DNA from: Actinomycetes bacterium | GTDB taxonomy: Bacteria; Actinomycetota; Actinomycetes; Streptosporangiales; Streptosporangiaceae | NCBI GenBank assembly: GCA_021792855.1 | Contig: JAJYTW010000003.1 | Span: 1-62,399, forward strand | Reading direction: 5' to 3' | DNA length: 62,399 bases | In this document: in pieces, positions 45,762 to 58,537 of the stretch | How the letters are laid out: the number at the start of each line of letters is the position of its first letter | Numbering within the stretch: position 1 is the first letter of the stretch | The notes under the pieces: model-generated | Database searches by the model: none | What the model was told of the DNA's origin: nothing | What the model saw: the letters and a program-made list of their open reading frames with translations, nothing else | Made by a program: the position numbers and the translations under genes

Positions 45762-46604
45762 CTAGGCCGCGGCCCCGCCAGGTGGCGTGGGCAGGTGGCC
45801 GAGCGCCGGAACCGCGGCCAGCAGGGCGCGGGTGTACTCGTGCCGCGGCCGCGCGTAGATCTGGTCGGTCTCGCCGGTCTCCACGATCTCGCCCCGGTAC
45901 AGCACGACCACCTCGTCGCACAGATGGCGCACCACCGCCATGTCGTGCGAGATGAACACGAGCGTCAGGCTGAATTCGCCGATTAGGCGCTTGAGCAGGT
46001 TCAGGATCTGGGCCCGGACGGACACGTCGAGAGCGCTCACCGGCTCGTCGGCCACCAGGACCTCGGGCATCGGGCCGAGCGCGCGCGCGATCGCGATCCG
46101 CTGCCGCTGGCCACCGGAGAACTCATGCGGATACAACCGGGCGCTGGTCCGCGGCAGGCCGACGGCATCGAGCAACTCGGGCACCCGGGTCCGCTCGTCA
46201 CCCGCGTCCAGCGCGCGGAGCGGTTCGGCGAGGATGTCGTGTACCCGCATCCGGGGGTCGAGTGAGGACATCGGATCCTGGAACACGATCTGCACCCGGC
46301 GGCGGAACGAGCGCAGCCGACGCTCGGGCAGTCCGCTCACCACCTCGCCGCGGTACCTGATCTCCCCGGTGGTAGGTGTCTCCAGCGCCATCAGCAGCCG
46401 GGCCAGGGTGGACTTCCCCGAGCCGGACTCCCCGACGATGCCGACCGTGGCCCCCTCGGCGATCGAGACGTCCACGTCGGCCAGGGCGCGCACCCCCAAG
46501 CCGCGCTGGCCGCCGTAGACCTTGCTGACGCCCCTGGCAGCCAGGATGGGCGCGGGCACGGCGGATGCGGCGGGCACGGCGGGCACGGCGTCGGTTGAGT
46601 CCAC
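45762..46604 (-). CDS. ABC transporter ATPase, DppF/OppF type
   Basis: 280 residues. Walker A GESGSGKSTLARLL, signature FSGGQRQRIAIARALG, Walker B LVADEPVSALDVS, and the OppF-like VFQDPMSSLDPRMRV. Last gene of a five-gene oligopeptide-type importer running from 51152 down. It forms the ATPase heterodimer with the gene upstream. Confidence 0.93.
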   Translation of the reverse strand: MDSTDAVPAVPAASAVPAPILAARGVSKVYGGQRGLGVRALADVDVSIAEGATVGIVGESGSGKSTLARLLMALETPTTGEIRYRGEVVSGLPERRLRSFRRRVQIVFQDPMSSLDPRMRVHDILAEPLRALDAGDERTRVPELLDAVGLPRTSARLYPHEFSGGQRQRIAIARALGPMPEVLVADEPVSALDVSVRAQILNLLKRLIGEFSLTLVFISHDMAVVRHLCDEVVVLYRGEIVETGETDQIYARPRHEYTRALLAAVPALGHLPTPPGGAAA

Positions 46605-46609
46605 GAGGC

Positions 46610-47632
46610 CTACTCCTTGCCGGACTCGGCGAGGTCCGCCGGGATCTGCGGGCTGGCCGGGATCTGCGGGCTGGCCGGTCCGCCCAGCGGGTGGTGGCAG
46701 GCCGCGAGGTGGTCACCGACCGCCTCGATCGGCGGCATCACCGCGCACTCGGCGGTGGCCCGGTCGCACCTGGACCGGAACGGGCAGCCGGCCGGGAACG
46801 ATCCGACCGCCGGGACCTGACCGGGGATGTACGGGACCTCCAGGCGGGTCCGGTCGCTGTCCAGGGAGACCGCCGCCGAGGTGGCGAGCAACCCGGCCGT
46901 ATAGGGATGCCGCGGCGCGGCCAGCACCTGCGCCGTGTTGCCCGACTCGACCACGTGCCCGCCGTACATCACCATCACCCGCTCGCACATCCCGCTGACC
47001 ACGGCCAGGTCGTGACTGATCAGCACCAGGGCGGCGTTCTCCTCGGTGACCAGCCGGGCCATCAGCGCCAGCATCTGGGCCTGCACGGTCACGTCCAACG
47101 CGGTGGTCGGCTCGTCGGCCAGGATCACCGCGGGGTCGCACGCGATCGCCATCGCCAGCATCACCCGCTGCCGCTGGCCGCCGGATAGCTGGTGCGGGTA
47201 GGACCTGGCCTGCCGGGCCGGGTCGGTGAACTCGACCCTGGCCAGCAGTTCGGTGGCCCGCTGCCGGGCCTCGGCGCGGGTGCACCGCTGGTGCGCTCGG
47301 ATCGCCTCGGCGATCTGCCTGCCGACCCGCATGGTCGGGTTGAGCGCGGTCATCGGCTCCTGGAACACCATCGCCATCGTGCCGCCGCGCACCTCGCAGC
47401 GCTGCCGCTCGGTCATGGCAAGCAGGTCCCGGTCGCCGATCAGCACCTGGCCGGTGGCCCGCAGCGACGGCGCAAGCAGGCCCATCACGGCCAGCGCGGT
47501 GACCGTCTTTCCCGACCCGGACTCGCCGATGATCCCCAGCCGCTGGCCGGGTTCGAGGTCGAAGGACACGCCATCGACCACCACGGCCGCGCCTAGGGTG
47601 ACGGTGAGATTCCGGACCGACAGGGTGCTCAT
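46610..47632 (-). CDS. ABC transporter ATPase, DppD/OppD type
   Basis: 340 residues. Walker A GESGSGKTVTALAVMG, signature LSGGQRQRVMLAMAIA, Walker B ILADEPTTALDVT, and the C-terminal Cys-rich extension GCPFRSRCDRATAEC, typical of OppD/DppD (in some family members it binds a 4Fe-4S cluster). The tail contains an exact 18-bp duplication (PASPQI repeat, 46641-46676). Starts with a 4-base overlap with the permease. Confidence 0.93.
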   Translation of the reverse strand: MSTLSVRNLTVTLGAAVVVDGVSFDLEPGQRLGIIGESGSGKTVTALAVMGLLAPSLRATGQVLIGDRDLLAMTERQRCEVRGGTMAMVFQEPMTALNPTMRVGRQIAEAIRAHQRCTRAEARQRATELLARVEFTDPARQARSYPHQLSGGQRQRVMLAMAIACDPAVILADEPTTALDVTVQAQMLALMARLVTEENAALVLISHDLAVVSGMCERVMVMYGGHVVESGNTAQVLAAPRHPYTAGLLATSAAVSLDSDRTRLEVPYIPGQVPAVGSFPAGCPFRSRCDRATAECAVMPPIEAVGDHLAACHHPLGGPASPQIPASPQIPADLAESGKE

Positions 47633-48546
47633 TGGCGCAGCCTCGGGTCGAGCACCTCGCGCAGGCCGTCGCCGAGCAGGTTGAAGCCGAGCACCGCCAG
47701 GAAGATGGCGATGCCTGGCCAGACCGCGAGCATCGGGTCCTCGGCGAGGTAGTTCTGGGCGGTGCCGATCATCTGTCCCCAGGACGCCGTCGGCGGCGGC
47801 GTACCGAGGCCGAGGAAGTCCAGCGCGGTCTCGGCCAGGATCGCGACCGAGAACAGCAGGCTCGCCTGGACGATCAGGATCGCGGCGATGTTCGGCAGGA
47901 CGTGCCTGCGGAGCACGGCGAACGGGCGCCTGCCGTAGGCCCGGGCGGCTAGCACGAAGTCCGAGCTAAGCACGGCCAGCGCGCTGCCCCTGGTCACCCG
48001 CGCGAATACCGGGATGTAGGCGATCCCGATCGCGATCATCGCGACCGTGGTCGACGCCCCGAGCGCCGCCGACAGGGTGATCGCGGCCAGCAGCGCGGGG
48101 AAGCCGTAGATGACGTCGCCGGTTCGCATGATCGCCTCGTCCAGCAGACCGCCCCGCTGGGCCGCGAACAGCCCGGCGGGAATACCGATCAGGCCGGCGA
48201 TCAGCACCGACACCACGCCCGCGTAGATCGTGATGCGAGCCCCGGCGATCAACCGGCTGAGCACGTCCCTGCCGTACTGGTCGGTGCCAAGCAGGTGTGC
48301 CGAGGACGGGCCGTGCAGCGCGATCTGCGGCGCGATGCCGAGCGGGTTGTACGGGGTCCAGACGAACGAGAGGATCGCCATCAGCACCATGATCGCCACG
48401 ATCGTGCCGCCGATCAGGAGGCTCGGGCTGTGCCGGGCCCGGCGCCACGCCACGCTCAGCCTGGCGGTCCCGGCGGGTGCGCCGGCCGGGCCGTCGGAGA
48501 TGGGTGCGGCCACCGCCGCGGCCACCGGATCGCCGCCGATGCTCAC
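47629..48546 (-). CDS. ABC transporter permease, DppC/OppC type
   Basis: 305 residues, six helices. Typical loop ARAYGRRPFAVLRRHVLPN and C-terminus GFNLLGDGLREVLDPRLRQ. Overlaps its neighbours by 4 bases on both sides, so the importer genes are translationally coupled. Confidence 0.93.
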   Translation of the reverse strand: MSIGGDPVAAAVAAPISDGPAGAPAGTARLSVAWRRARHSPSLLIGGTIVAIMVLMAILSFVWTPYNPLGIAPQIALHGPSSAHLLGTDQYGRDVLSRLIAGARITIYAGVVSVLIAGLIGIPAGLFAAQRGGLLDEAIMRTGDVIYGFPALLAAITLSAALGASTTVAMIAIGIAYIPVFARVTRGSALAVLSSDFVLAARAYGRRPFAVLRRHVLPNIAAILIVQASLLFSVAILAETALDFLGLGTPPPTASWGQMIGTAQNYLAEDPMLAVWPGIAIFLAVLGFNLLGDGLREVLDPRLRQ

Positions 48547-49496
48547 GGCCTGCTCCCAACGCGCGGGTCGAGCAGCCGGTAGGACAGGTCGACCAGGAAG
48601 TTCAGCAGCAGCACCACCGCCGAGACTCCGATGACCACGTCCTGCACAAGCAGCAGGTCCCGGTTGTCCACCGCCTGCAGCAGCATGGTCCCCACTCCCG
48701 GCAGGGTGAAGACGTTCTCGACCACGATCGCCCCGACAATCAGGCCGGCCATCTCCAGCCCGAACACGGTCACCACCGGGATCAGAGCGTTCCTGGTGCC
48801 ATGCCGCCGCAGCGCCTGCAGCGGCCGCAGGCCCTTGGCCCGCGCCGTGCGGTAGTAATCCGACCGCAGCACCTCAAGGATCGAGGCACGGACGAACCGG
48901 CTGAGGATCGCGCCCTCCACGACCCCGAGCGCGATCGCGGGCAGGATCAGCGACCGGAAGGCCTGCACCGGACTCTGCTGCCAGGTCACGAAGCCGCCGG
49001 AGGGCAGCAGGTGCACCGTGACCGCGAACACGATGATCAGCAGGATGCCGCCGACGAAGGTCGGGATCGCGATGCCCACCTGGCTCAGCGCGCTCACCAG
49101 TGCGCCGCTCGGCCGGTCGGCGCGCAGCGCCGAGATCATCCCGAGCGGCACCGCGATCAGCACGCCGACCGCCAGGCCCATCAGGATCAGCGGGACCGTG
49201 ACCTGAAGCGCCGCCGATAGCTGCGCCCAGATCGGCTGGCCGGAGATGTAGGAGATGCCCAGATGGCCGGTCAGCAGCCCGCCGACCCAGTCGGCGTACT
49301 GCTGCCACAGCGGCTTGTCGAGTCCGAGCTTGGCGGTCAGGGCCGCCACCGAGGCTGGCGTCGCCTGGGTGCCGAGGATCACCTGGGCGGGACTGCCCGG
49401 CAGCACCGCCAGGACCAGGAAGACCAGCACCGATGCGGCGAACAGCGAGGCGATGAGGATGAGCAGGCGCCGCAGGGCCTGCAGCAGAGCACTCAT
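48543..49496 (-). CDS. ABC transporter permease, DppB/OppB type
   Basis: 317 residues, six helices, with TARAKGLRPLQALRRHGTRN and the C-terminal DLSYRLLDPRVG. ATG at 49496 is directly after GAGG; a GTG two codons earlier is also possible. Lies 72 bases after the binding-protein gene. Confidence 0.93.
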   Translation of the reverse strand: MSALLQALRRLLILIASLFAASVLVFLVLAVLPGSPAQVILGTQATPASVAALTAKLGLDKPLWQQYADWVGGLLTGHLGISYISGQPIWAQLSAALQVTVPLILMGLAVGVLIAVPLGMISALRADRPSGALVSALSQVGIAIPTFVGGILLIIVFAVTVHLLPSGGFVTWQQSPVQAFRSLILPAIALGVVEGAILSRFVRASILEVLRSDYYRTARAKGLRPLQALRRHGTRNALIPVVTVFGLEMAGLIVGAIVVENVFTLPGVGTMLLQAVDNRDLLLVQDVVIGVSAVVLLLNFLVDLSYRLLDPRVGSRP

Positions 49497-49568
49497 CCTC
49501 ACTCGCCTCGCTGTTCTCGTCCTCGCCCGGCCACGGTAACAGCCGTGCGCCGGTCCAACGTCGGTCCG

Positions 49569-51152
49569 TTAGCCCGCGAAGCCCTGGGCCTTCGCCTGGC
49601 TGGACAGGGTTCCGCCGATGGATGCGTACATCAGGTTGAACGACTCGGTCAGCCCGGTGGCTGGCAGGCCAACGATGTTCGACTTGGCGACCGTGATCTG
49701 GTCCGGGTTGTACAGCCAGCAGTTCACGGCGTCCGCTGTGATCATCTTGAGCACCTGGGTGTACTTGGCGACCTGACCGGCCTGGGTCGGGGCCGCGTCG
49801 CCCGCGGCGAGCAGGCTGGCCACCTGGGAGGTCTTGTTGTACTGCCAGTAGTAGCTCGGGATGGCGTAGTTGCCGATATCACGCGCCTCGACGTGGTCGA
49901 CGATCGTCATGTCGAAGTTGTGGTTGGTGAACACCTGGCTCAGCCAGAGCGGCCACTGGATGTCCTTGATCGTGACGTTGATGCCGACCGACTTGAGGTT
50001 GGCGGCGATCAGCGGGCCGGCCGCGGTCGCGTACCCGTACGGCGGCAGGGTCAGGGTGATGTTGAAGCCGTGCGGGTAGCCCGCCTGCGTCAGCAGTTGC
50101 CTGGCCTTGCCCGGGTTGTACGGGTAGACCTTCGCGTAGCTGGGCGAGTACCACGGGTCGCCCGGCACGGTGTCGCTGCCGATCACGGTGCCGTAGCCGG
50201 CCGCGGTGGTCTGCACGATCGCCGCCTTGTCGATCGCGTAGGAGATCGCCCGGCGCACCAGGACGTTCTTCAGCGGGCCGGCGGTGTTGTTCAGGGTGAG
50301 CTGGATCTTGCCGTTGGTCGGCCCGGAGATGATCTTGTAAGCCGAGTTCCCCTGGAACTGCTTGGCGTCCGGCGGGTTCGACAGATTGTCGATGACCTGG
50401 ATCTGCCCGCTCTGCAGGGCGCTGTTCTCGGCGTTGGAGTTGGCGAAGTACCGGAACACCACCGTGGACGGGCCGGGCGCGGTGCCCCAGTAGTCCGGGT
50501 TCTTGACCAGGGTGATGCTGTAGTTGCTCACCTCGGAGGAGTACTTGTACGGTCCGGTGCCGACCGGCTGGGTAGCGATCTTGCTGACCGCTGCCGGGTC
50601 CAGGATCACGCCGTTGCTGTAGGCGGCGAACTGATACAGCCACTCGTTGTTGGGCTGCGACAGGGTCACGGCCACCTGGTCGGAGGAGACCTTGGTGACC
50701 GAGGTGACGGTGCCCATCAGCGCCTTGTACGGGTAGGTGGACTTCGGCGCGACCACCCGCTTGATGCTGTACACCACGTCGGCGGCGGTCATCGGGTCCC
50801 CGTTGGAGAACTTGACGCCCTTGCGCAGCGTGAAGGTGATGGTCTTGCGGTTCGCCGACCAGGAGTAGGAGGTGGCGAGCACCGGCACGATCTGGCCCTT
50901 GGGGTCTAGCTGCACCAGGTGCTGGTAGACGTTGTAGTCGAACACCTCGTCGATCGCCGCGGCCGGGTTGGCGGTCAGGTCGAGCGTCGGCGGGGCGACG
51001 CTGGAGCCAATGGTCAGGGTGCCGCCCTTGCCGCCGGACGTGCTGCCTCCGGTGGAGGTCGAACCTGAGCTGCCCGAGGAGCAGCCGGCCACGAGGGCCA
51101 GGGACGCGGCCACCGCTGGCAAGGCGAGCCCTAGCATCCGCCGTCTCATCAT
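49569..51152 (-). CDS. Extracellular solute-binding protein, family 5 (lipoprotein)
   Basis: 527 residues. Signal peptide with lipobox LALVAGC and a Ser/Gly/Thr spacer, then the DppA-like fold (EVFDYNVYQHLVQLDPKG; ITFTLRKGVKFSNGDPMTAADVVYSI; RRAISYAIDKAAIVQT). It captures the substrate of the importer and probably defines its specificity for peptides or related amides. A FadR-type operator stands 123 bases before the start, linking it to the regulator at 51375. Confidence 0.93.
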   Translation of the reverse strand: MMRRRMLGLALPAVAASLALVAGCSSGSSGSTSTGGSTSGGKGGTLTIGSSVAPPTLDLTANPAAAIDEVFDYNVYQHLVQLDPKGQIVPVLATSYSWSANRKTITFTLRKGVKFSNGDPMTAADVVYSIKRVVAPKSTYPYKALMGTVTSVTKVSSDQVAVTLSQPNNEWLYQFAAYSNGVILDPAAVSKIATQPVGTGPYKYSSEVSNYSITLVKNPDYWGTAPGPSTVVFRYFANSNAENSALQSGQIQVIDNLSNPPDAKQFQGNSAYKIISGPTNGKIQLTLNNTAGPLKNVLVRRAISYAIDKAAIVQTTAAGYGTVIGSDTVPGDPWYSPSYAKVYPYNPGKARQLLTQAGYPHGFNITLTLPPYGYATAAGPLIAANLKSVGINVTIKDIQWPLWLSQVFTNHNFDMTIVDHVEARDIGNYAIPSYYWQYNKTSQVASLLAAGDAAPTQAGQVAKYTQVLKMITADAVNCWLYNPDQITVAKSNIVGLPATGLTESFNLMYASIGGTLSSQAKAQGFAG

Positions 51153-51274
51153 AAGTCTCTCCCGTCAGGGGCCGAGTGCGCCAAACCCGAGCGAACAGCG
51201 ACCATAGCCGCTAGCCCGCCCGATAGGTAGACAAGATTGCCCCTGGCCGAGTGACCTCGTCAAGTACTTGGTCA

Positions 51275-51289
51275 ACTGGTCCGGCCAGT
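51275..51289. promoter_or_regulatory. FadR-type operator, copy 1 (importer operon)
   Basis: ACTGGTCCGGCCAGT is a 15-bp palindrome matching the sites at 52248 and 52267. It carries the TGGTnnnnCCA core favoured by FadR-subfamily GntR proteins. Confidence 0.65.
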
Positions 51290-51374
51290 AGCTTTGGTGA
51301 AGCGTGGGTAAACCAGGATGATCTATACCATCTTATGGATATCAGCCCGATATCAATATCAATCGAGTTCGTCA

Positions 51375-52145
51375 TCAATCCAGCGCCTCGGCGTCGATCA
51401 GCGCCTCGAGCATCGGGCGCTGCTCCTCGGGCACGTAGCTCGCGTAGTACTCGTACAGGTTCGCCCTGGCCAGCCTGGCCGCCTCCGCGCCGTCACCGCG
51501 GCGGACCGCCTCGAAGACCTCGGTGTGGTGGCGCAGCGACTGGCGCATCAACTCGGCCCGGTCCGGGGCCAGGTCCAGCTTGCCGGCGATCAGCCTGAGC
51601 ACCACGTCGCGCACCACCTCGGCGCAGACCTGGATCAGCATGTTGCCGCTGGCCTGCGCGACGATCTCGTGGAAGGCCACATCGGCCTCGCTGAACGCGG
51701 CATGGCCGCTGCCGATCGCCTCGCGCATCCGGCCCAGCGCCGCCTCCATCGCAGCGACCTGGTCGTCCGTGCAGAGCCGGGCCGCGAGCAGGTTGGCCGA
51801 CCCCTCCAGGATCATCCGGAACTGGACGAGTTCCCCGAGGCTGAGTTCCTCCACCCGGGCCAGTCGGAGCACGGACTTACGCAGCGTGCCGGCCGAGAAC
51901 GGCAGCACCTCGGCGCCATGCGGATCGCCCGGCCTGGACCGGATCAGGCCGGAGCTTTCCAGCACCCGCAGGGCCTCGCGCACCGTCGACCGGCTGACCG
52001 CGAACTGGGCCATCAGGTCCCGTTCGCTCGGCAGCCTGCTGCCGGGCTGCAGGCTGCCGCGGGCGAGTGCGTCCTCGACCTGTTCCACGATGGCCTCGTA
52101 CGCACGGACCGCGCGCACGGGCCGGAAGCCTTGTTCGTCCGACAC
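51375..52145 (-). CDS. GntR-family regulator, FadR (FCD) subfamily
   Basis: 256 residues from GTG with GAGG ahead. N-terminal winged helix (LQPGSRLPSERDLMAQFAVSRSTVREALRVLESSGLI), C-terminal all-helical FCD domain with metal/ligand residues in EADVAFHEIVAQASGN and SLRHHTEVFEAVRRGD. FCD regulators usually sense carboxylic acids. It lies between the importer and the catabolic operon, and matching palindromes stand before both, so it is their probable controller. Confidence 0.92.
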   Translation of the reverse strand: MSDEQGFRPVRAVRAYEAIVEQVEDALARGSLQPGSRLPSERDLMAQFAVSRSTVREALRVLESSGLIRSRPGDPHGAEVLPFSAGTLRKSVLRLARVEELSLGELVQFRMILEGSANLLAARLCTDDQVAAMEAALGRMREAIGSGHAAFSEADVAFHEIVAQASGNMLIQVCAEVVRDVVLRLIAGKLDLAPDRAELMRQSLRHHTEVFEAVRRGDGAEAARLARANLYEYYASYVPEEQRPMLEALIDAEALD

Positions 52146-52247
52146 GCCTCAACCTCGCCTCGTCGCGCACGGGGCGTGCGCAGCTACGGTGAGCGACCTT
52201 GACGCCCACGATCGCACCATGACACTCTACCGAAGTTCGCGTAGCCT

Positions 52248-52262
52248 ACTGGTCTGACCAGT
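52248..52262. promoter_or_regulatory. FadR-type operator, copy 2 (catabolic operon)
   Basis: ACTGGTCTGACCAGT, a perfect 15-bp palindrome in the divergent region between the regulator and the dehydrogenase gene. It contains TGGTCTGACCA, nearly identical to known FadR sites. Confidence 0.75.
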
Positions 52263-52266
52263 ACCC

Positions 52267-52281
52267 GGTAGTCTGACCGGT
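52267..52281. promoter_or_regulatory. FadR-type operator, copy 3, weaker
   Basis: GGTAGTCTGACCGGT repeats the GTCTGACC centre exactly 19 bases after copy 2, so two dimers could sit on nearly the same face of the helix. Confidence 0.55.
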
Positions 52282-52302
52282 GCCAACCGAGCGGGAGGAC
52301 GT

Positions 52303-53400
52303 GTGGCGAAGATCCCTGTCGCGGTGATCCCAGGCGATGGGATCGGCCCCGAGGTCGTCGCGGCAACCGTTCCGGTGCTGGTCGCGGCGGCCGCCCGGGA
52401 GGGCGCCACGCTCGCCATCACCGAATACGACTGGGGCGCCGAACGCTATCTGCGCACCGGGGCCGCCATGCCGGCCGACGGCCCAGACCAGGTCAGGTCC
52501 GCCCGCGCGGCGCTGTTCGGGGCGGTCGGCCACCCCGGCGTCCCGGACCACGAACTGGTGTGGGGCCTGATCATCAGGCTCCGGCAGGCCCTGGATCTGG
52601 CCGTCAATCTCCGCCCGGTACGAAGCTGGCCGGGAGTCAGCACGCCGCTCAGGGACGCCGAGGGCACCGACATCCTCATCGTCAGGGAGAACACCGAGGG
52701 CGAGTACACCGGGGTCGGCGGGCGGGTACGGCCGGGCGCCGACGCCGAGATCGCCCTGGAGGTCGCGGTGCACTCGCGGGCCGTGATCGCCCGTGCGGCC
52801 CGCTACGCCTTCGACGCCGCCAGGGCCAGGCGCGGCCACCTGGCCCTGGTAACCAAGTCCAACGCGATGCGCCACGGGTACACCCTCTGGGACGCGGTGG
52901 TCGACGAGGTCGCCGCCGACTATCCGGACGTCAGGTACGAGCGGGTTCTCGTTGACGCCATGGCCGCCCGACTGGTGCAGCGCCCGCGCAGCCTGGACGT
53001 GCTGCTCGCCAGCAACCTGTTCGGCGACATCCTGTCCGACCTCGCCGCCGTGCTGGCCGGCGGGCTCGGAATGGCGCCAAGCGGGAACGTCCTGCCCGGG
53101 CAGAGCCCCGGCGTGTTCGAGTCGGTGCACGGCTCGGCCCCGGACATCGCCGGGCGCGGCATCGCCAACCCGGTCGCCTGCCTGCTGTCGGGCGCGATGC
53201 TGCTCGATCACGTCGGCCTGCCCGGCGCCGCCGAGGCGGTCCGCACCGCGGTCGGCGCGGCGCTCGCCGACCCGGCGAACCACACCCCGGACCTGGGCGG
53301 CGCCGGCACCACCACGACCCTGGCCGGCGCCGTGCTCGCGGCGCTCCCCGACGCCCCGGTGCCGGCCGTGACGGCAACGGGAGGGAATGGGCAATCATGA
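52303..53400 (+). CDS. Beta-decarboxylating dehydrogenase, tartrate/D-malate type
   Basis: 365 residues from GTG. Isocitrate/isopropylmalate dehydrogenase fold: IPVAVIPGDGIGPEVVAATV, NLRPVRSWPG, DILIVRENTEGEYTGVGG, VTKSNAMRHGYTLWD (catalytic Lys) and LVDAMAARLV with LASNLFGDILSDLAA for metal binding. Closest in style to tartrate dehydrogenase/decarboxylase and D-malate dehydrogenase. First gene of the operon; its stop overlaps the next start as ATGA. GGGAGG precedes the GTG. Confidence 0.92.
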   Translation: MAKIPVAVIPGDGIGPEVVAATVPVLVAAAAREGATLAITEYDWGAERYLRTGAAMPADGPDQVRSARAALFGAVGHPGVPDHELVWGLIIRLRQALDLAVNLRPVRSWPGVSTPLRDAEGTDILIVRENTEGEYTGVGGRVRPGADAEIALEVAVHSRAVIARAARYAFDAARARRGHLALVTKSNAMRHGYTLWDAVVDEVAADYPDVRYERVLVDAMAARLVQRPRSLDVLLASNLFGDILSDLAAVLAGGLGMAPSGNVLPGQSPGVFESVHGSAPDIAGRGIANPVACLLSGAMLLDHVGLPGAAEAVRTAVGAALADPANHTPDLGGAGTTTTLAGAVLAALPDAPVPAVTATGGNGQS

Positions 53401-54617
53401 CCAGCACAAGCGAGTCCGCGCCGGCGGTCCCCGACGTCGACGTCGCCGCCATGCTCGGCTTCCTGCGCGACCTGATCCGGATCCGCAGCGTGCACGACCC
53501 CGACGGTGGCACCGACGAGAGCGCGGCCGCCGCGCTGGTGGCCGCCAAGATGCGCGAGTTCGGCTGGACGCCTGAGATCGTCGAGGTCGCGCCCGGCCGG
53601 CCCAACGTGTTCGCCACCGTCGAGGGCGGCGGCGGTCCGGGACCTACGCTGGCCTTCGAGGGGCACACCGACGTGGTCACCGAGGGGGCGCTGGACGCGT
53701 GGACTGTCGACCCGTACGGCGCCGAACTGCGGGACGGCCGGATCTACGGCCGCGGCTCGGCGGACATGAAGTCCGGCGTGGCCGCCATGCTGTACGCGAC
53801 CGCCGCGGTCGCGGCCGCGGGCCCGTTCCCCGGGCGGATCAGGCTGTGCGTGCTGGTCGATGAGGAGGGCATGATGCTCGGCGCCAAGCACGCCTGCGCG
53901 TCCGGCGCCCTGGCCGGCGTCGACGGGGCGATCTGCTGCGAGCCCGAGGAGGGCGAGATCTGCGCGGTCTCCAAGGGCGCGCTCCGGCTCAGGGTCGACG
54001 TGATCGGCAAGATGGCGCACGGCGCGATGCCCCAGCACGGCCGGAACCCGCTGCCCGTGGTCGGCCGCCTGCTCGCGGCCGCGACCGAGCTTGAGCGCCG
54101 GCTCCAGCGCGAGCACCCCGCACACGAGCACCTGGGCGAGATCTACCTGACCCCGACCGTGGTCACCGCCGGCCATCCGGTGCAGATGAACGTGATCGGC
54201 CGGCAGGCCAGCGTCTACTTCGACATCCGGACCATTCCCGGGGCCGACCACGCAGCGATCACCGCCGACCTGCGCGCGCTGGCGCGTGCGGCCTGCACCG
54301 AGGGCATCACCGCCGAGGTGACGGTGATCGACGACCGGCCCCCGGTCGACACCCCGGTGGACCATCCGGTCGTGGCCAGCCTGGCCGCCGCGCACGAGCA
54401 GGTCACCGGATCGCCGGCCAGGTACGGCGGAGTGCCGGGCACCACCGACGGAACCATCCTGACCAGGGACGCGGGCATCGCCACCGTGGTCTACGGCCCG
54501 GGCGGGAAGTGGATCGCCCACCAGGCGGACGAGTTCGTCGAGGTCGCCGACGTCGAGCGGTGCGCGCGGGTGTACGCGGCCACGGCCCGCCGCTTCCTGG
54601 CCGGGAGCCGGGCATGA
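53397..54617 (+). CDS. M20-family amidohydrolase/deacylase (ArgE/DapE-like)
   Basis: 406 residues. Zinc-site motifs: LAFEGHTDVVTEG (His, Asp), GRGSADMKSGVAAML, LVDEEGMMLGAKHA (catalytic and metal Glu) and CEPEEGEICAVSKGAL. A dimerisation insert sits around 190-300. The family removes acyl groups from N-acyl amino acids or cleaves small amides. Overlaps both neighbours by 4 bases. The exact substrate is unknown. Confidence 0.92.
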   Translation: MTSTSESAPAVPDVDVAAMLGFLRDLIRIRSVHDPDGGTDESAAAALVAAKMREFGWTPEIVEVAPGRPNVFATVEGGGGPGPTLAFEGHTDVVTEGALDAWTVDPYGAELRDGRIYGRGSADMKSGVAAMLYATAAVAAAGPFPGRIRLCVLVDEEGMMLGAKHACASGALAGVDGAICCEPEEGEICAVSKGALRLRVDVIGKMAHGAMPQHGRNPLPVVGRLLAAATELERRLQREHPAHEHLGEIYLTPTVVTAGHPVQMNVIGRQASVYFDIRTIPGADHAAITADLRALARAACTEGITAEVTVIDDRPPVDTPVDHPVVASLAAAHEQVTGSPARYGGVPGTTDGTILTRDAGIATVVYGPGGKWIAHQADEFVEVADVERCARVYAATARRFLAGSRA

Positions 54618-55774
54618 CCGGCGGCGCGGACACCGGACCGGGCGGTGCCGGGGCGGGCGGTGCCGGGGCGGGCGGTGCCGGTGCGGGCGGCGCCGGGGCG
54701 GTCCCTGCCGGGGCGGGACCGGCCAACGGCCTCACCGACGTCCGCGGCCTGCGGGTCGGCCACGCGACGCTGACCACCGCTGGCTGGCTGACCGGCACCA
54801 CGGTGGTGCTCGCCGACGGCGAGGGCGCCGTGGCCGGGGTGGACGTCCGGGGCTCGGGTCCGGGCACCAGGGAGACGGACCTGCTCGACCCGCGCAACAC
54901 GGTCGAGCGGGTCCAGGCCATCGTGCTCAGCGGCGGCAGCGCCTACGGCCTGGCCGCGGCCACCGGCGTGATGGGCGCCCTGGCGGCGGCGGGCCGCGGC
55001 GTGCAGGTCGCACCGGACCCGGCCAGCGTCGTGCCCATCGTCCCGGCCGCGATCCTGTTCGACCTCGGCCGGGGCGGCGTCTTCGGCCACCACCCGGGCG
55101 AGGAGGCCGGGCGCGCTGCCTATAACGACGCGGTCGGCCCGGCGGGAGCCGGCCCGGTGCGACAGGGCAACGTCGGCGCGGGCACCGGCGCCGTGGCCGG
55201 CGGGATCCGGGGCGGTATCGGAACCGCCAGCGCGGTGCTCCCCGGCGGAGCGGTGGTCGCCGCCCTCGCCGCGGTGAACGCGCACGGCTCCCCTTACCAC
55301 CCCGCGACCGGCGTGCTGTACGGCGCCCAGTTCGGGCTGCCCGGCGAGTTCGACTGGCTCCGGCCGCCCGCCGAGACGCCGACCGCGAGCGGTGTGCCCG
55401 GGGCTGGCCTGTTCGGCCACGGCGCCGACGCCCAGCCGTTCAACACCACCATCGGCGTGGTCGCCACCGACCTCACGCTCACCAAGGCGCAATGCTCCAA
55501 GCTCGCCGCCGTCGGCCAGGACGGCCTGGCCCGCGCGATCCGGCCCGCCCACACCATGAGCGACGGCGACACCATCTTCGGACTGGCCACCTGCGCGGGT
55601 CCGGCACCATCCCTGGCTGAGACCCACGACCTGCTGGCCGCCGCGGCGGACTGCTTCACCCGGGCCGTCATGCACGCCGTGCTCGCGGCCACCACGGTCA
55701 GCACTCCAGCCGGAACCTGGCTTTCCTATCTGGACACCTTCCCTACCGCTGCCTCACCGGGAGTTTCCGCATGA
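54614..55774 (+). CDS. P1-family (S58) N-terminal-nucleophile hydrolase, NylC-like
   Basis: 386 residues. The DmpA/BapA/NylC fold is clear: GLRVGHATLTTAGWLTGTTV, VLSGGSAYGLAAATGVM, GNVGAGTGAVAGGIRGGIGT and DGLARAIRPAHTMSDGDTIF. These enzymes cut themselves and expose a nucleophile. Here the site reads FNTTIGVVATD, so cleavage between Asn277 and Thr278 with Thr278 as nucleophile is expected, as in the nylon-oligomer hydrolase NylC, rather than Ser as in DmpA. Relatives cleave beta-peptides or omega-amide oligomers. The N-terminus carries five Gly/Ala-rich 15-bp repeats. Confidence 0.9.
   Translation: MTGGADTGPGGAGAGGAGAGGAGAGGAGAVPAGAGPANGLTDVRGLRVGHATLTTAGWLTGTTVVLADGEGAVAGVDVRGSGPGTRETDLLDPRNTVERVQAIVLSGGSAYGLAAATGVMGALAAAGRGVQVAPDPASVVPIVPAAILFDLGRGGVFGHHPGEEAGRAAYNDAVGPAGAGPVRQGNVGAGTGAVAGGIRGGIGTASAVLPGGAVVAALAAVNAHGSPYHPATGVLYGAQFGLPGEFDWLRPPAETPTASGVPGAGLFGHGADAQPFNTTIGVVATDLTLTKAQCSKLAAVGQDGLARAIRPAHTMSDGDTIFGLATCAGPAPSLAETHDLLAAAADCFTRAVMHAVLAATTVSTPAGTWLSYLDTFPTAASPGVSA
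54641..54715 (+). repeat. Five imperfect 15-bp tandem repeats in the NylC-like gene
   Basis: Units of the form GGCGGTGCCGGGGCG begin at 54641, 54656, 54671, 54686 and 54701 and encode GGAGA four times, then VPAGA. They lie before the folded domain and may vary in copy number. Confidence 0.85.
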
Positions 55775-57222
55775 CGATGTTCGAGCCGCCCTACCCGGCC
55801 GGCCTGCCGATCGGCGACGCCTGGGTACCGGCCCCGGCCACCGCGCCGGTGATCTTCCCGTTCGATGGCAGCGTCGTCGCCGACGCCCCGGTCGGTGACG
55901 TGGCGACCGCCCGGCGGGCGGTCGACGAGGCCGTCGCCGTCGCGCGGGCGACCGCCGCGCTGCCATCGCACCTCCGGCGGGCGGTCCTGCAGGCCACCCA
56001 CGACGCGATGGCCAGCCACCGCGCGGAGTTCGAGGACCTGCTCGTGCTGGAGTCCGGCAAGCCACTGGTCGACTGCCGGACCGAGGTCGCCAGGACGCTC
56101 GTCACCCTCCAGGCATCGGCGGAGGAGGTCGCCAGGCTGCACGGCGAGACCGTGCCGCTCGACCTGCTGCCGGCCGGCGAGGGACTGGTCGGGTTCTGGA
56201 CCCGCCGCCCGATCGGGCCGGTCGTCGGCATCGCCGGATACAACTACCCGCTGCTGCTGGCCAGCCACAAGATGGCCCCATCGTTCGCGGCCGGGTGCCC
56301 CGTCATCGTCAAGCCGGCTCCGGCGACCCCGCTCGCGACGCTGTGGATGATCCACCTGATGCGCGAGGCGCTAGCGCGGGCCGGGGCGCCCGTGGCGGCC
56401 GTTCAACTGGTCACCGGAGACGCCGAGGTGGGCTCGGCCATGGTCACCGACCGCCGGATCGGCGCGGTGTCATTCACCGGATCGGCCGCGGTCGGGCACC
56501 GAATCGCCAGGGACGCCGCGCCCACCAAGGTGCTGCTCGAACTCGGGTCGAACTCGGCGCTCGTGGTCGCGGCCGACGCCGACATCGACGCCGCGGTCGA
56601 TGCCATCCTGCGCGGCGGCTATTACGCGTCCGGCCAGGCGTGCATCGCGGTGCAGCGGGTGATCGTAGTGGCCGAGGTGGCCGAGAGGCTGACCCGGGCG
56701 CTGAACGCCAGGATCGGCGAGGTGGTCACCGGCGACCCGCGCGACCCGGCGACCCGGGTGGCCCGGCTGATCAACTCGGCCGCCACCGACCGGGTACGGG
56801 ACTGGATCGGCCAGGCGGTCACCGCCGGGGCGAGCGTGCTGGCCGGCGGCTCCGTGCTGGACGGAGTGATCACGCCGACGGTGCTCGCCGACGTGCCGGA
56901 CGGCACGGCCGCCTGGGACGAGGAGATCTTCGCCCCGGTCGTCGCGGTGCGGGTCGTCCCCGACCTCGACGCCGCCTTCGAGGTGGTCAACCACTCCAGG
57001 TACGGGCTGCACGCCAGCGTGTTCACCCGGTCGCTGGCCACCGCATTCCGGGCGATCGACACCCTCGAGGTCGGCGGAGTGGTCGTGAACGAGGTACCCG
57101 GCTTCCGCGCCGACACCATGCCGTACGGCGGCGTGAAGGACTCCGGCATCGGCCGGGAGGGGCCACGGTTCGCGATCGAGGAACTGACCGTCACCCGGAT
57201 GGCGATCATCCGGCCAGCCTGA
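55771..57222 (+). CDS. NAD(P)-dependent aldehyde dehydrogenase
   Basis: 483 residues, ALDH superfamily. Catalytic Cys291 (SGQACIAVQR) and Glu257 (LLELGSN), the NAD-binding FTGSAAVG and the Asn in AGYNYPLLL are present. It resembles succinate-semialdehyde and other short acid-semialdehyde dehydrogenases, which would suit breakdown of an omega-amino acid. Overlaps the hydrolase stop by 4 bases. Confidence 0.92.
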   Translation: MTMFEPPYPAGLPIGDAWVPAPATAPVIFPFDGSVVADAPVGDVATARRAVDEAVAVARATAALPSHLRRAVLQATHDAMASHRAEFEDLLVLESGKPLVDCRTEVARTLVTLQASAEEVARLHGETVPLDLLPAGEGLVGFWTRRPIGPVVGIAGYNYPLLLASHKMAPSFAAGCPVIVKPAPATPLATLWMIHLMREALARAGAPVAAVQLVTGDAEVGSAMVTDRRIGAVSFTGSAAVGHRIARDAAPTKVLLELGSNSALVVAADADIDAAVDAILRGGYYASGQACIAVQRVIVVAEVAERLTRALNARIGEVVTGDPRDPATRVARLINSAATDRVRDWIGQAVTAGASVLAGGSVLDGVITPTVLADVPDGTAAWDEEIFAPVVAVRVVPDLDAAFEVVNHSRYGLHASVFTRSLATAFRAIDTLEVGGVVVNEVPGFRADTMPYGGVKDSGIGREGPRFAIEELTVTRMAIIRPA

Positions 57223-57233
57223 GAGGCGCCGAC

Positions 57234-58016
57234 ATGGACTACAGCAAGCTGTTCCGGCTCGACGGCCGCACCGCGGTGGTGGTCGGCGCGGGCGGCGGCA
57301 TCGGCCGGGAGTGCGCGCTCGCCCTGGCCGCCCACGGCGCCAGCGTGGTGTGCGCGGACATCGATGCAGAGGCCGCCGCCCGTACCGTCACCGCGGTCGC
57401 CGAGGCTGGTGGCGCCACCGGGTCGGCCTACCAGCTTGACGTGCTGGACACCGCGGCGATCGGCGCCGCGGCGGCCCGGTTCGCCGACGCGGACGTGCTG
57501 GTCTTCACCACCGGCATGAACGTGCGCAAGCGACTGCTCGACTACTCCCCGGCGGAGTTCGACAAGGTGGTAGCGCTCAACCTGCGGGCATCGTTCGACC
57601 TGATCCGGGCGTTCGCCCCGGCCATGGTCGAGCGGGGGCAGGGCAGCATCATCGGCTTCTCCTCGATCCGGGCGCTCACCGTCGAACCCGGCCAGGGCGT
57701 GTACGCGGCGACCAAGGCGGGGCTCGTCCAGCTCACCAGGACGGCGGCGGCCGAGCTTGGCCCGGCCGGAGTCCGGGTCAACGTGGTCGCGCCGGGGGTA
57801 GTGGAGACCCCGCTGACCGCGCCGATCCGGGCCAGCAAGCCGTGGGCGGACGCGTACGCCACCAAGAGCGCACTCGGCCGGTGGGCGCGGCCGGACGAGA
57901 TGGCCGGCGCCGTCGTCTACCTGGCCTCCGACGCCGCGAGCTTCGTCACCGGTACCGTGCTGCTCGTCGATGGCGGCTGGACCGCCGTGGACGGCCGGTT
58001 CGACCCGCCTGCCTGA
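57234..58016 (+). CDS. Short-chain dehydrogenase/reductase
   Basis: 260 residues. Rossmann motif VVGAGGGIGRE (in place of TGxxxGIG), CADIDAEAAA for cofactor choice (Asp favours NAD), catalytic Tyr157 and Lys161 (VYAATK) with FSSIRA supplying Ser, and the end SFVTGTVLLVDGGW. Last gene of the operon, 11 bases after the ALDH stop. Confidence 0.93.
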   Translation: MDYSKLFRLDGRTAVVVGAGGGIGRECALALAAHGASVVCADIDAEAAARTVTAVAEAGGATGSAYQLDVLDTAAIGAAAARFADADVLVFTTGMNVRKRLLDYSPAEFDKVVALNLRASFDLIRAFAPAMVERGQGSIIGFSSIRALTVEPGQGVYAATKAGLVQLTRTAAAELGPAGVRVNVVAPGVVETPLTAPIRASKPWADAYATKSALGRWARPDEMAGAVVYLASDAASFVTGTVLLVDGGWTAVDGRFDPPA

Positions 58017-58081: not shown

Positions 58082-58537
58082 ATGACGGCGTGGCGGGATG
58101 TCGAGCGGACGGAGCCGGAGTTCGCGCGGCGGGTGCGGATGCTGTTCGACGCGCAGCGGCATAAGACACTCGCCACCATCCGGGCCGACGGGTCGCCGCG
58201 GATCTCAGGGATCGAGGCCGCCTTCGAGGACGGCGACCTGGTCTTCGGCTCGATGCCGAACTCCCGCAAGGGCGCCGACCTGCGCCGGGACCCGCGGTTC
58301 GCCCTGCATAGCGCGACCACCGACCCGGTCGAGGGCGCCGAGGCAGCGTGGCCGGGCGAGGCCAAGATCTCCGGCCGGGCGATCCCGGCCGGACCGGTCA
58401 CCGACGACCCGGCCGGCGATCGCTTCCGCGCCGACATCGCCGAGGTGGTGCACACCCACCTCGATGAGCAGGCCGCGATGCTCGTCGTCGAGTGGTGGAC
58501 GCCCGGAAGCGGACTGCGGAGGATCGAGCGCGAGTAA
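58082..58537 (+). CDS. Pyridoxamine-5'-phosphate-oxidase-like flavin/F420-binding protein
   Basis: 151 residues, split-barrel fold of the PNPOx/FDOR group: FDAQRHKTLATIRADGSPRISGIEA, LVFGSMPNSRKGADLRRDPRFALH. In actinobacteria such proteins use F420 or flavin, or bind haem. Function unknown. It stands 65 bases after the operon and may be separate. Confidence 0.85.
   Translation: MTAWRDVERTEPEFARRVRMLFDAQRHKTLATIRADGSPRISGIEAAFEDGDLVFGSMPNSRKGADLRRDPRFALHSATTDPVEGAEAAWPGEAKISGRAIPAGPVTDDPAGDRFRADIAEVVHTHLDEQAAMLVVEWWTPGSGLRRIERE

Follow-up and report, generated by a model that had tools for sequence, protein, structure and literature searches.

A regulated actinobacterial gene cluster that probably serves the catabolism of pantetheine and pantothenate

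We analysed a stretch of 62,399 nucleotides (the window, that is, the whole DNA under analysis) from contig JAJYTW010000003.1 of assembly GCA_021792855.1, which belongs to an actinobacterium of the family Streptosporangiaceae. This stretch contains a locus that probably serves the catabolism of pantetheine and pantothenate (vitamin B5). The locus is made of two divergent transcription units: a regulator gene and importer genes on the minus strand, and a five-gene operon (52303-58016) on the plus strand. The operon codes for a decarboxylating dehydrogenase of the Iso_dh family (52303-53400; PF00180, E 8.7e-94), an M20 (ArgE/DapE) amidohydrolase (53397-54617), an S58 N-terminal nucleophile (Ntn) hydrolase similar to ThnT (54614-55774; PF03576, E 7.9e-61), an aldehyde dehydrogenase (ALDH; 55771-57222; PF00171, E 2.1e-126) and a short-chain dehydrogenase/reductase (SDR; 57234-58016; PF13561, E 5.3e-61). 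Adjacent genes overlap by 4 bp at three of the four junctions, the last being an 11-bp gap, and all five enzymes retain intact catalytic motifs, including those of the M20 metal site and those with the catalytic Cys and Glu of ALDH.

Pantothenate consists of pantoate amide-linked to beta-alanine, and its degradation needs an amidase (pantothenase, EC 3.5.1.22), a primary-alcohol dehydrogenase (pantoate 4-dehydrogenase, EC 1.1.1.106), an aldehyde dehydrogenase (4-dehydropantoate dehydrogenase, EC 1.2.1.33) and a decarboxylating dehydrogenase yielding 2-oxoisovalerate (3,3-dimethylmalate dehydrogenase, EC 1.1.1.84). The window holds dehydrogenases of the alcohol, aldehyde and decarboxylating beta-carboxy hydroxy-acid types that this catabolism requires, and in the same operon the M20 amide hydrolase, a candidate for acting on pantothenate. 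The four reaction types of pantothenate degradation in Pseudomonas fluorescens, in fact, pair one to one with the M20/amidase, SDR, ALDH and Iso_dh genes; that pathway is known from biochemistry, and the window locus goes beyond it in having an importer, a regulator and a gene similar to pantetheinase. Two of the activities, EC 1.1.1.84 and EC 1.2.1.33, were listed as validated orphans in 2007 (PMC1940265), and the protein identity of pantothenase was called unknown in a 2023 paper (PMC10393543). In the literature searched, with subscription papers outside its coverage, no genes were named for pantothenate degradation and this gene set was not found as a described pathway, as an earlier sequence-only reading of the window had supposed.

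The pathway that we infer, including substrates, importer cargo, repression and inducer, would run as follows. The substrate would be taken up by the Dpp-type importer; the S58 enzyme would split pantetheine into pantothenate and cysteamine, and M20 would hydrolyse pantothenate to pantoate and beta-alanine. SDR would then form 4-dehydropantoate by oxidising the primary alcohol group of pantoate, ALDH would convert this to 3,3-dimethylmalate, and the Iso_dh-family enzyme would form 2-oxoisovalerate by oxidative decarboxylation, which would enter valine catabolism. SDR, ALDH and the decarboxylating malate-type dehydrogenase would travel together because the part released by hydrolysis is most likely pantoate. 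The likeliest assignment makes S58 the pantetheinase and M20 the pantothenase, although the two roles could be swapped or overlapping.

The S58 protein scores 206.6 bits against PF03576 (cut-off 23.9) and contains the self-cleavage site FNTTIG, with Thr278 as the predicted nucleophile, preceded by Asn277 (NTT motif). The sequence-only reading had described it as NylC/DmpA-like, a description that has to be replaced: when the protein was compared to solved structures with phmmer, ThnT was the closest (E ~1e-94), followed by the nylon-66 hydrolase 9cxr (2.6e-40), as compared to 2.2e-7 for NylC and ~1e-6 to 1e-5 for DmpA/BapA. The nearest characterised relative is not a 6-aminohexanoate oligomer hydrolase. 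NylC, DmpA and BapA belong to the same Pfam family and probably share the self-cleaving mechanism, but they are far more distant in sequence. The protein is 53.4% identical, over 94% of the query, to a ThnT-type protein encoded on a plasmid of Streptantibioticus (Streptomyces) cattleyicolor by an unannotated S58 gene, which we take to be thnT. ThnT, with 53% identity and a common Asn-Thr cleavage/nucleophile motif, cleaves a pantetheine arm in thienamycin biosynthesis, whereas the window enzyme would be catabolic; moreover, according to PMC6097109, ThnT works on the arm after its attachment to the carbapenem. We regard this similarity as a lead, which may point to the chemistry but falls short of proof for the substrate.

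Other S58 proteins were seen along the way. The window genome (G000) has five S58 matches (C316, C200, C321, C144 and C251), and two others tested lie far from the ThnT-like group. A Mycobacterium-like genome carries an S58 gene (L026:9612-10640) whose product is about 50% identical to that of the window, in surroundings that read like the Rv1333 region. Acidobacteriota copies (L103, L108) start with a signal-peptide-like sequence, which suggests that they are exported.

The conservation of the cluster was examined in 80 loci from a scan of named genomes with the SDR alignment, chosen by SDR similarity alone; genes were counted within 10 kb of SDR. ALDH was present in 47 loci, M20 in 31, an amidase-signature enzyme in 27, S58 in 19, a TTC-type dehydrogenase (the decarboxylating Iso_dh-family enzyme) in 16, a class III transaminase in 12, malonate/methylmalonate-semialdehyde dehydrogenase (MMSDH) in 6 and panC in 4. 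These associations are far above random placement, as computed with assumed, generous copy numbers and with related loci that are not independent. The layouts nearest to the window are those of L065 and L060, both with TTC-M20-S58-ALDH-SDR in the window order, and L065 has the divergent importer as well; the conserved synteny proposed as a check on the sequence-only reading is borne out in other actinobacteria. Relatives from the same family (L018, L028) show the arrangement GntR / SBP-BCDF-M20-S58-ALDH-SDR, where SBP is the solute-binding protein of the importer, with L019 as a close variant, and more distant kin of the window genome have parts of the cluster only (L024). The SDR copies are 54-74% identical in clusters of Actinomycetota, Thermus and others. 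At the SDR loci of Herbaspirillum, Variovorax, Bordetella and Bradyrhizobium (45-48% identity) neither amidase nor TTC was found, and therefore the cluster could not be linked to Pseudomonas.

The distribution of the amide hydrolases is consistent with the proposed order of steps. The window M20 protein scores 247.8 bits against TIGR01910 (ArgE/DapE subfamily; cut-off 217.6). Either M20 or an amidase-signature gene occurs in 58 of the 80 loci, and the two are never found together (0/80; Fisher p 1.9e-7 in the 56 loci with SBP or ALDH). S58 is accompanied by M20 in 14 loci, by the amidase in 3 and by neither in 2. This is what would be expected if M20 and amidase, two unrelated enzymes, serve the same step and S58 an optional, earlier one. 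Where the locus has neither, homologues are often present elsewhere in the genome, of M20 with 64% and 57% identity (L071, L086) and of the amidase with 49-70% (L062, L034, L093, L078). We also observed, in a Pseudonocardia locus (L093), a hydantoinase/oxoprolinase A gene next to TTC-ALDH-SDR; in Actinomycetospora (L107), large unassigned open reading frames occupy the same place. These may be a third way of carrying out the amide or lactone step.

The best NCBIfam match of the first operon gene is the tartrate-dehydrogenase model TIGR02089, yet the score of 389.4 bits lies under the cut-off of 470.4. The nearest solved structure is the tartrate dehydrogenase 3flk (E 7e-80), and the Iso_dh family also includes LeuB; in the tree of this family, however, the window enzyme is on its own branch with L055, L060 and L065. 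The TTC-type enzymes of the clusters take two further places, one with L095 and L105 and the other, beside LeuB-type proteins, with L061, Micrococcales and Pseudonocardiaceae. Since they occupy three separate places, the decarboxylating reaction type was probably recruited to SDR more than once. In Amycolatopsis (L044, L047, L050, L053, L058 and L063), two CitE-type lyase-like genes adjoin the cluster; they could offer dimethylmalate another route, in the form of its coenzyme A (CoA) ester, or be unrelated.

The FadR-type regulator (GntR/FCD; 51375-52145, minus strand; PF00392 and PF07729) has a GntR helix-turn-helix and an FCD domain, and together with the palindromic operators it has the features of its class (putative DNA binding). 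Within the window, the operator is found without mismatches at two places only: ACTGGTCTGACCAGTA (52248-52263), about 40 bp before the five-gene operon, and ACTGGTCCGGCCAGTA (51275-51290), upstream of the importer and about 120 bp before the SBP gene. With up to three mismatches, 12 matches were counted with respect to 3.35 expected, and none of 100 shuffles reached 12; the 4.7-Mb assembly has a single copy of the perfect palindrome. Orthologs of the regulator (54-65% identical) adjoin related clusters, and ACTGGTCNGACCAGT or a close form lies upstream of the importer both in amidase-type clusters (Amycolatopsis, Kribbella, Streptomyces, Cryobacterium) and in M20/S58-type ones (Nonomuraea, Acidiferrimicrobium, L018, L028). 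One operator ties the two cluster variants together. Copies of the palindrome number one to four in 18 of 22 genomes and are absent from four, as compared to 0-2 for reversed-pattern controls; those outside the cluster (Acidiferrimicrobium, two Kribbella and one Streptomyces genome) are mostly inside genes. In Nonomuraea-type clusters, SDR is separately transcribed, with its own operator copy just upstream. Both units would probably be repressed by the regulator from the two operators, and repression would be lifted when it binds a pathway compound. In both Kribbella genomes an extra copy lies near an RpiR-type regulator gene (L145:6536 and L146:7512), which may be chance.

The importer is a complete Dpp/Opp-type system in the order SBP-B-C-D-F (45762-51152, minus strand). 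It comprises a lipoprotein-type solute-binding protein (SBP_bac_5; 49569-51152; PF00496, E 5e-87), the permeases DppB-like (48543-49502; BPD_transp_1 and BPD_transp_1_N) and DppC-like (47629-48546; BPD_transp_1 and OppC_N), and the ATPases DppD/OppD-like (46610-47632; ABC_tran and oligo_HPY, with OppD/DppD subfamily matches) and DppF/OppF-like (45762-46604; ABC features in the reading frame, and tblastn orthologs at the same position in relatives). The sequence-only reading, which had described an importer and a five-gene operon around a FadR-type regulator with matching operators, is confirmed, all genes being present with good family matches; of the span that it gave, 49569-58016, the five-gene operon stands, but the importer runs further, to 45762. 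Past SDR, a small gene similar to pyridoxamine-phosphate oxidase (58082-58537) starts after 65 bp; none was seen in related clusters, and it is probably outside the system.

Several neighbours of the related clusters would fit the disposal of beta-alanine or the supply of pantetheine. In the window genome, orthologs of the class III transaminase (61%) and of MMSDH (67%) lie side by side on contig C357, and beta-alanine, their presumed substrate, would be disposed of by these two enzymes in turn. The same two genes are neighbours of the cluster in Thermoanaerobaculia and accompany the whole set in Acidiferrimicrobium (L061, MMSDH above the TIGR01722 cut-off); Thermus plasmids carry MMSDH, SDR, M20 and the Dpp importer, with the transaminase as well in T. 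thermophilus JL-18. On plasmid pDCT5 of Arthrobacter dokdonellae, TTC, ALDH, SDR, FadR and panC are together, near a lipoyl acyltransferase and an acyl-CoA dehydrogenase; the window genome has one panC. A Gemmatimonadota locus (L105) combines SDR, ALDH and TTC with a PhoD phosphatase, an S58 gene at its edge and a phosphodiesterase/nucleotide pyrophosphatase whose start is signal-like. A pyrophosphatase of this kind is also encoded in Granulicella (L077), so that such neighbours occur in two phyla; together with PhoD in L105, they could bring about an extracytoplasmic breakdown of CoA to pantetheine. SSF symporters beside SDR (L095, L106) were considered as PanF but matched general SSF/SSS families only, and we make no such claim; a SusD-like reading of a gene in L105 was dropped. 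In four Nocardia loci (L067, L079, L080, L084), a 66-67% identical SDR is clustered with phosphoenolpyruvate mutase and a thiamine pyrophosphate-dependent decarboxylase, as well as ALDH, an AMP-ligase, a panC-like gene and a class III transaminase; such a cluster may make a phosphonate natural product by pantoate-type chemistry.

Some observations weigh against pantetheine and pantothenate catabolism. In the S58 tree, ThnT pairs with L020, outside the clade of the cluster S58 proteins, and the similarity is just as high for uncharacterised S58 proteins that have no such cluster; for these two reasons the transfer of specificity is uncertain. A dedicated TTC was sought elsewhere in the genomes of Kribbella and of part of the Nonomuraea type and was not found: two Kribbella (G062, G063), one Nonomuraea (G064) and G007 have importer, amidase, ALDH and SDR, with a single full-length Iso_dh-type match (42-45%) that is probably LeuB, so that the last step or the product must differ there. 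Some clusters are without ALDH or TTC, the M20, SDR and ALDH families are broad, and the four Nocardia loci with panC resemble biosynthetic rather than catabolic clusters.

Among the alternatives, there is a small chance that the locus breaks down a related pantoyl amide, such as panthenol or another N-pantoyl compound, or the amide of another 2,4-dihydroxy acid, by the same enzymology. Any 2,4-dihydroxy acid would suit the oxidation set, and promiscuity occurs among S58 enzymes, as the match with the nylon-66 hydrolase recalls, but the beta-alanine genes, panC and the nucleotide pyrophosphatase neighbours indicate the CoA/pantothenate series. Slightly less probable, and in our view unlikely, is the catabolism of beta-alanyl peptides or beta-peptides, in which S58 and M20 would free beta-amino acids and ALDH and SDR would take semialdehydes such as malonate semialdehyde. 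S58 does include beta-aminopeptidases, a Dpp importer suits peptides, and the transaminase and MMSDH neighbours process beta-alanine; however, the window S58 is far nearer to ThnT than to DmpA/BapA, and the decarboxylating malate-type dehydrogenase, panC and the clusters that have SDR-ALDH-TTC but no amidase at the locus would be left unexplained. Import and hydrolysis of a nylon-type amide oligomer or an N-acyl amino acid, as in the sequence-only reading, shares the S58 family and M20 amidases that act on N-acyl amino acids, but it is very improbable given the distance from NylC, an operon with no aminotransferase for 6-aminohexanoate, a decarboxylating dehydrogenase that it does not explain and the fact that soil actinobacteria keep the locus with fixed chemistry. 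Of that reading, co-regulated uptake, amide hydrolysis and oxidation stand, whereas a substrate other than nylon oligomers and beta-peptides is better supported. Tartrate/malate-type hydroxy-acid catabolism with incidental amidases, suggested by the TIGR02089 match, can be practically dismissed, since that score is below the cut-off, most clusters have an enzyme in the amidase slot, always of one type alone, and the dehydrogenase is absent from many.

Returning to pantetheine and pantothenate catabolism, it seems moderately likely that the cluster is a dedicated, regulated system for the uptake of pantetheine or CoA-derived pantothenate and its full breakdown to central metabolites, carried by many actinobacteria and partly by Thermus, Acidobacteriota, Gemmatimonadota and Chloroflexota, with two unrelated pantothenases and a repeatedly recruited decarboxylating dehydrogenase. 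The locus offers candidate genes for up to four activities known for decades without sequences, including two unrelated pantothenase candidates, and could give a name to many genes annotated merely as SDR, ALDH, M20, amidase or P1 peptidase. If this is true, ThnT-like S58 enzymes would have a catabolic role in bacteria, and vitamin B5 and CoA would count among the ordinary sources of carbon and nitrogen in soil; that soil bacteria eat the vitamin and the CoA arm would then bear on vitamin exchange in microbial communities.

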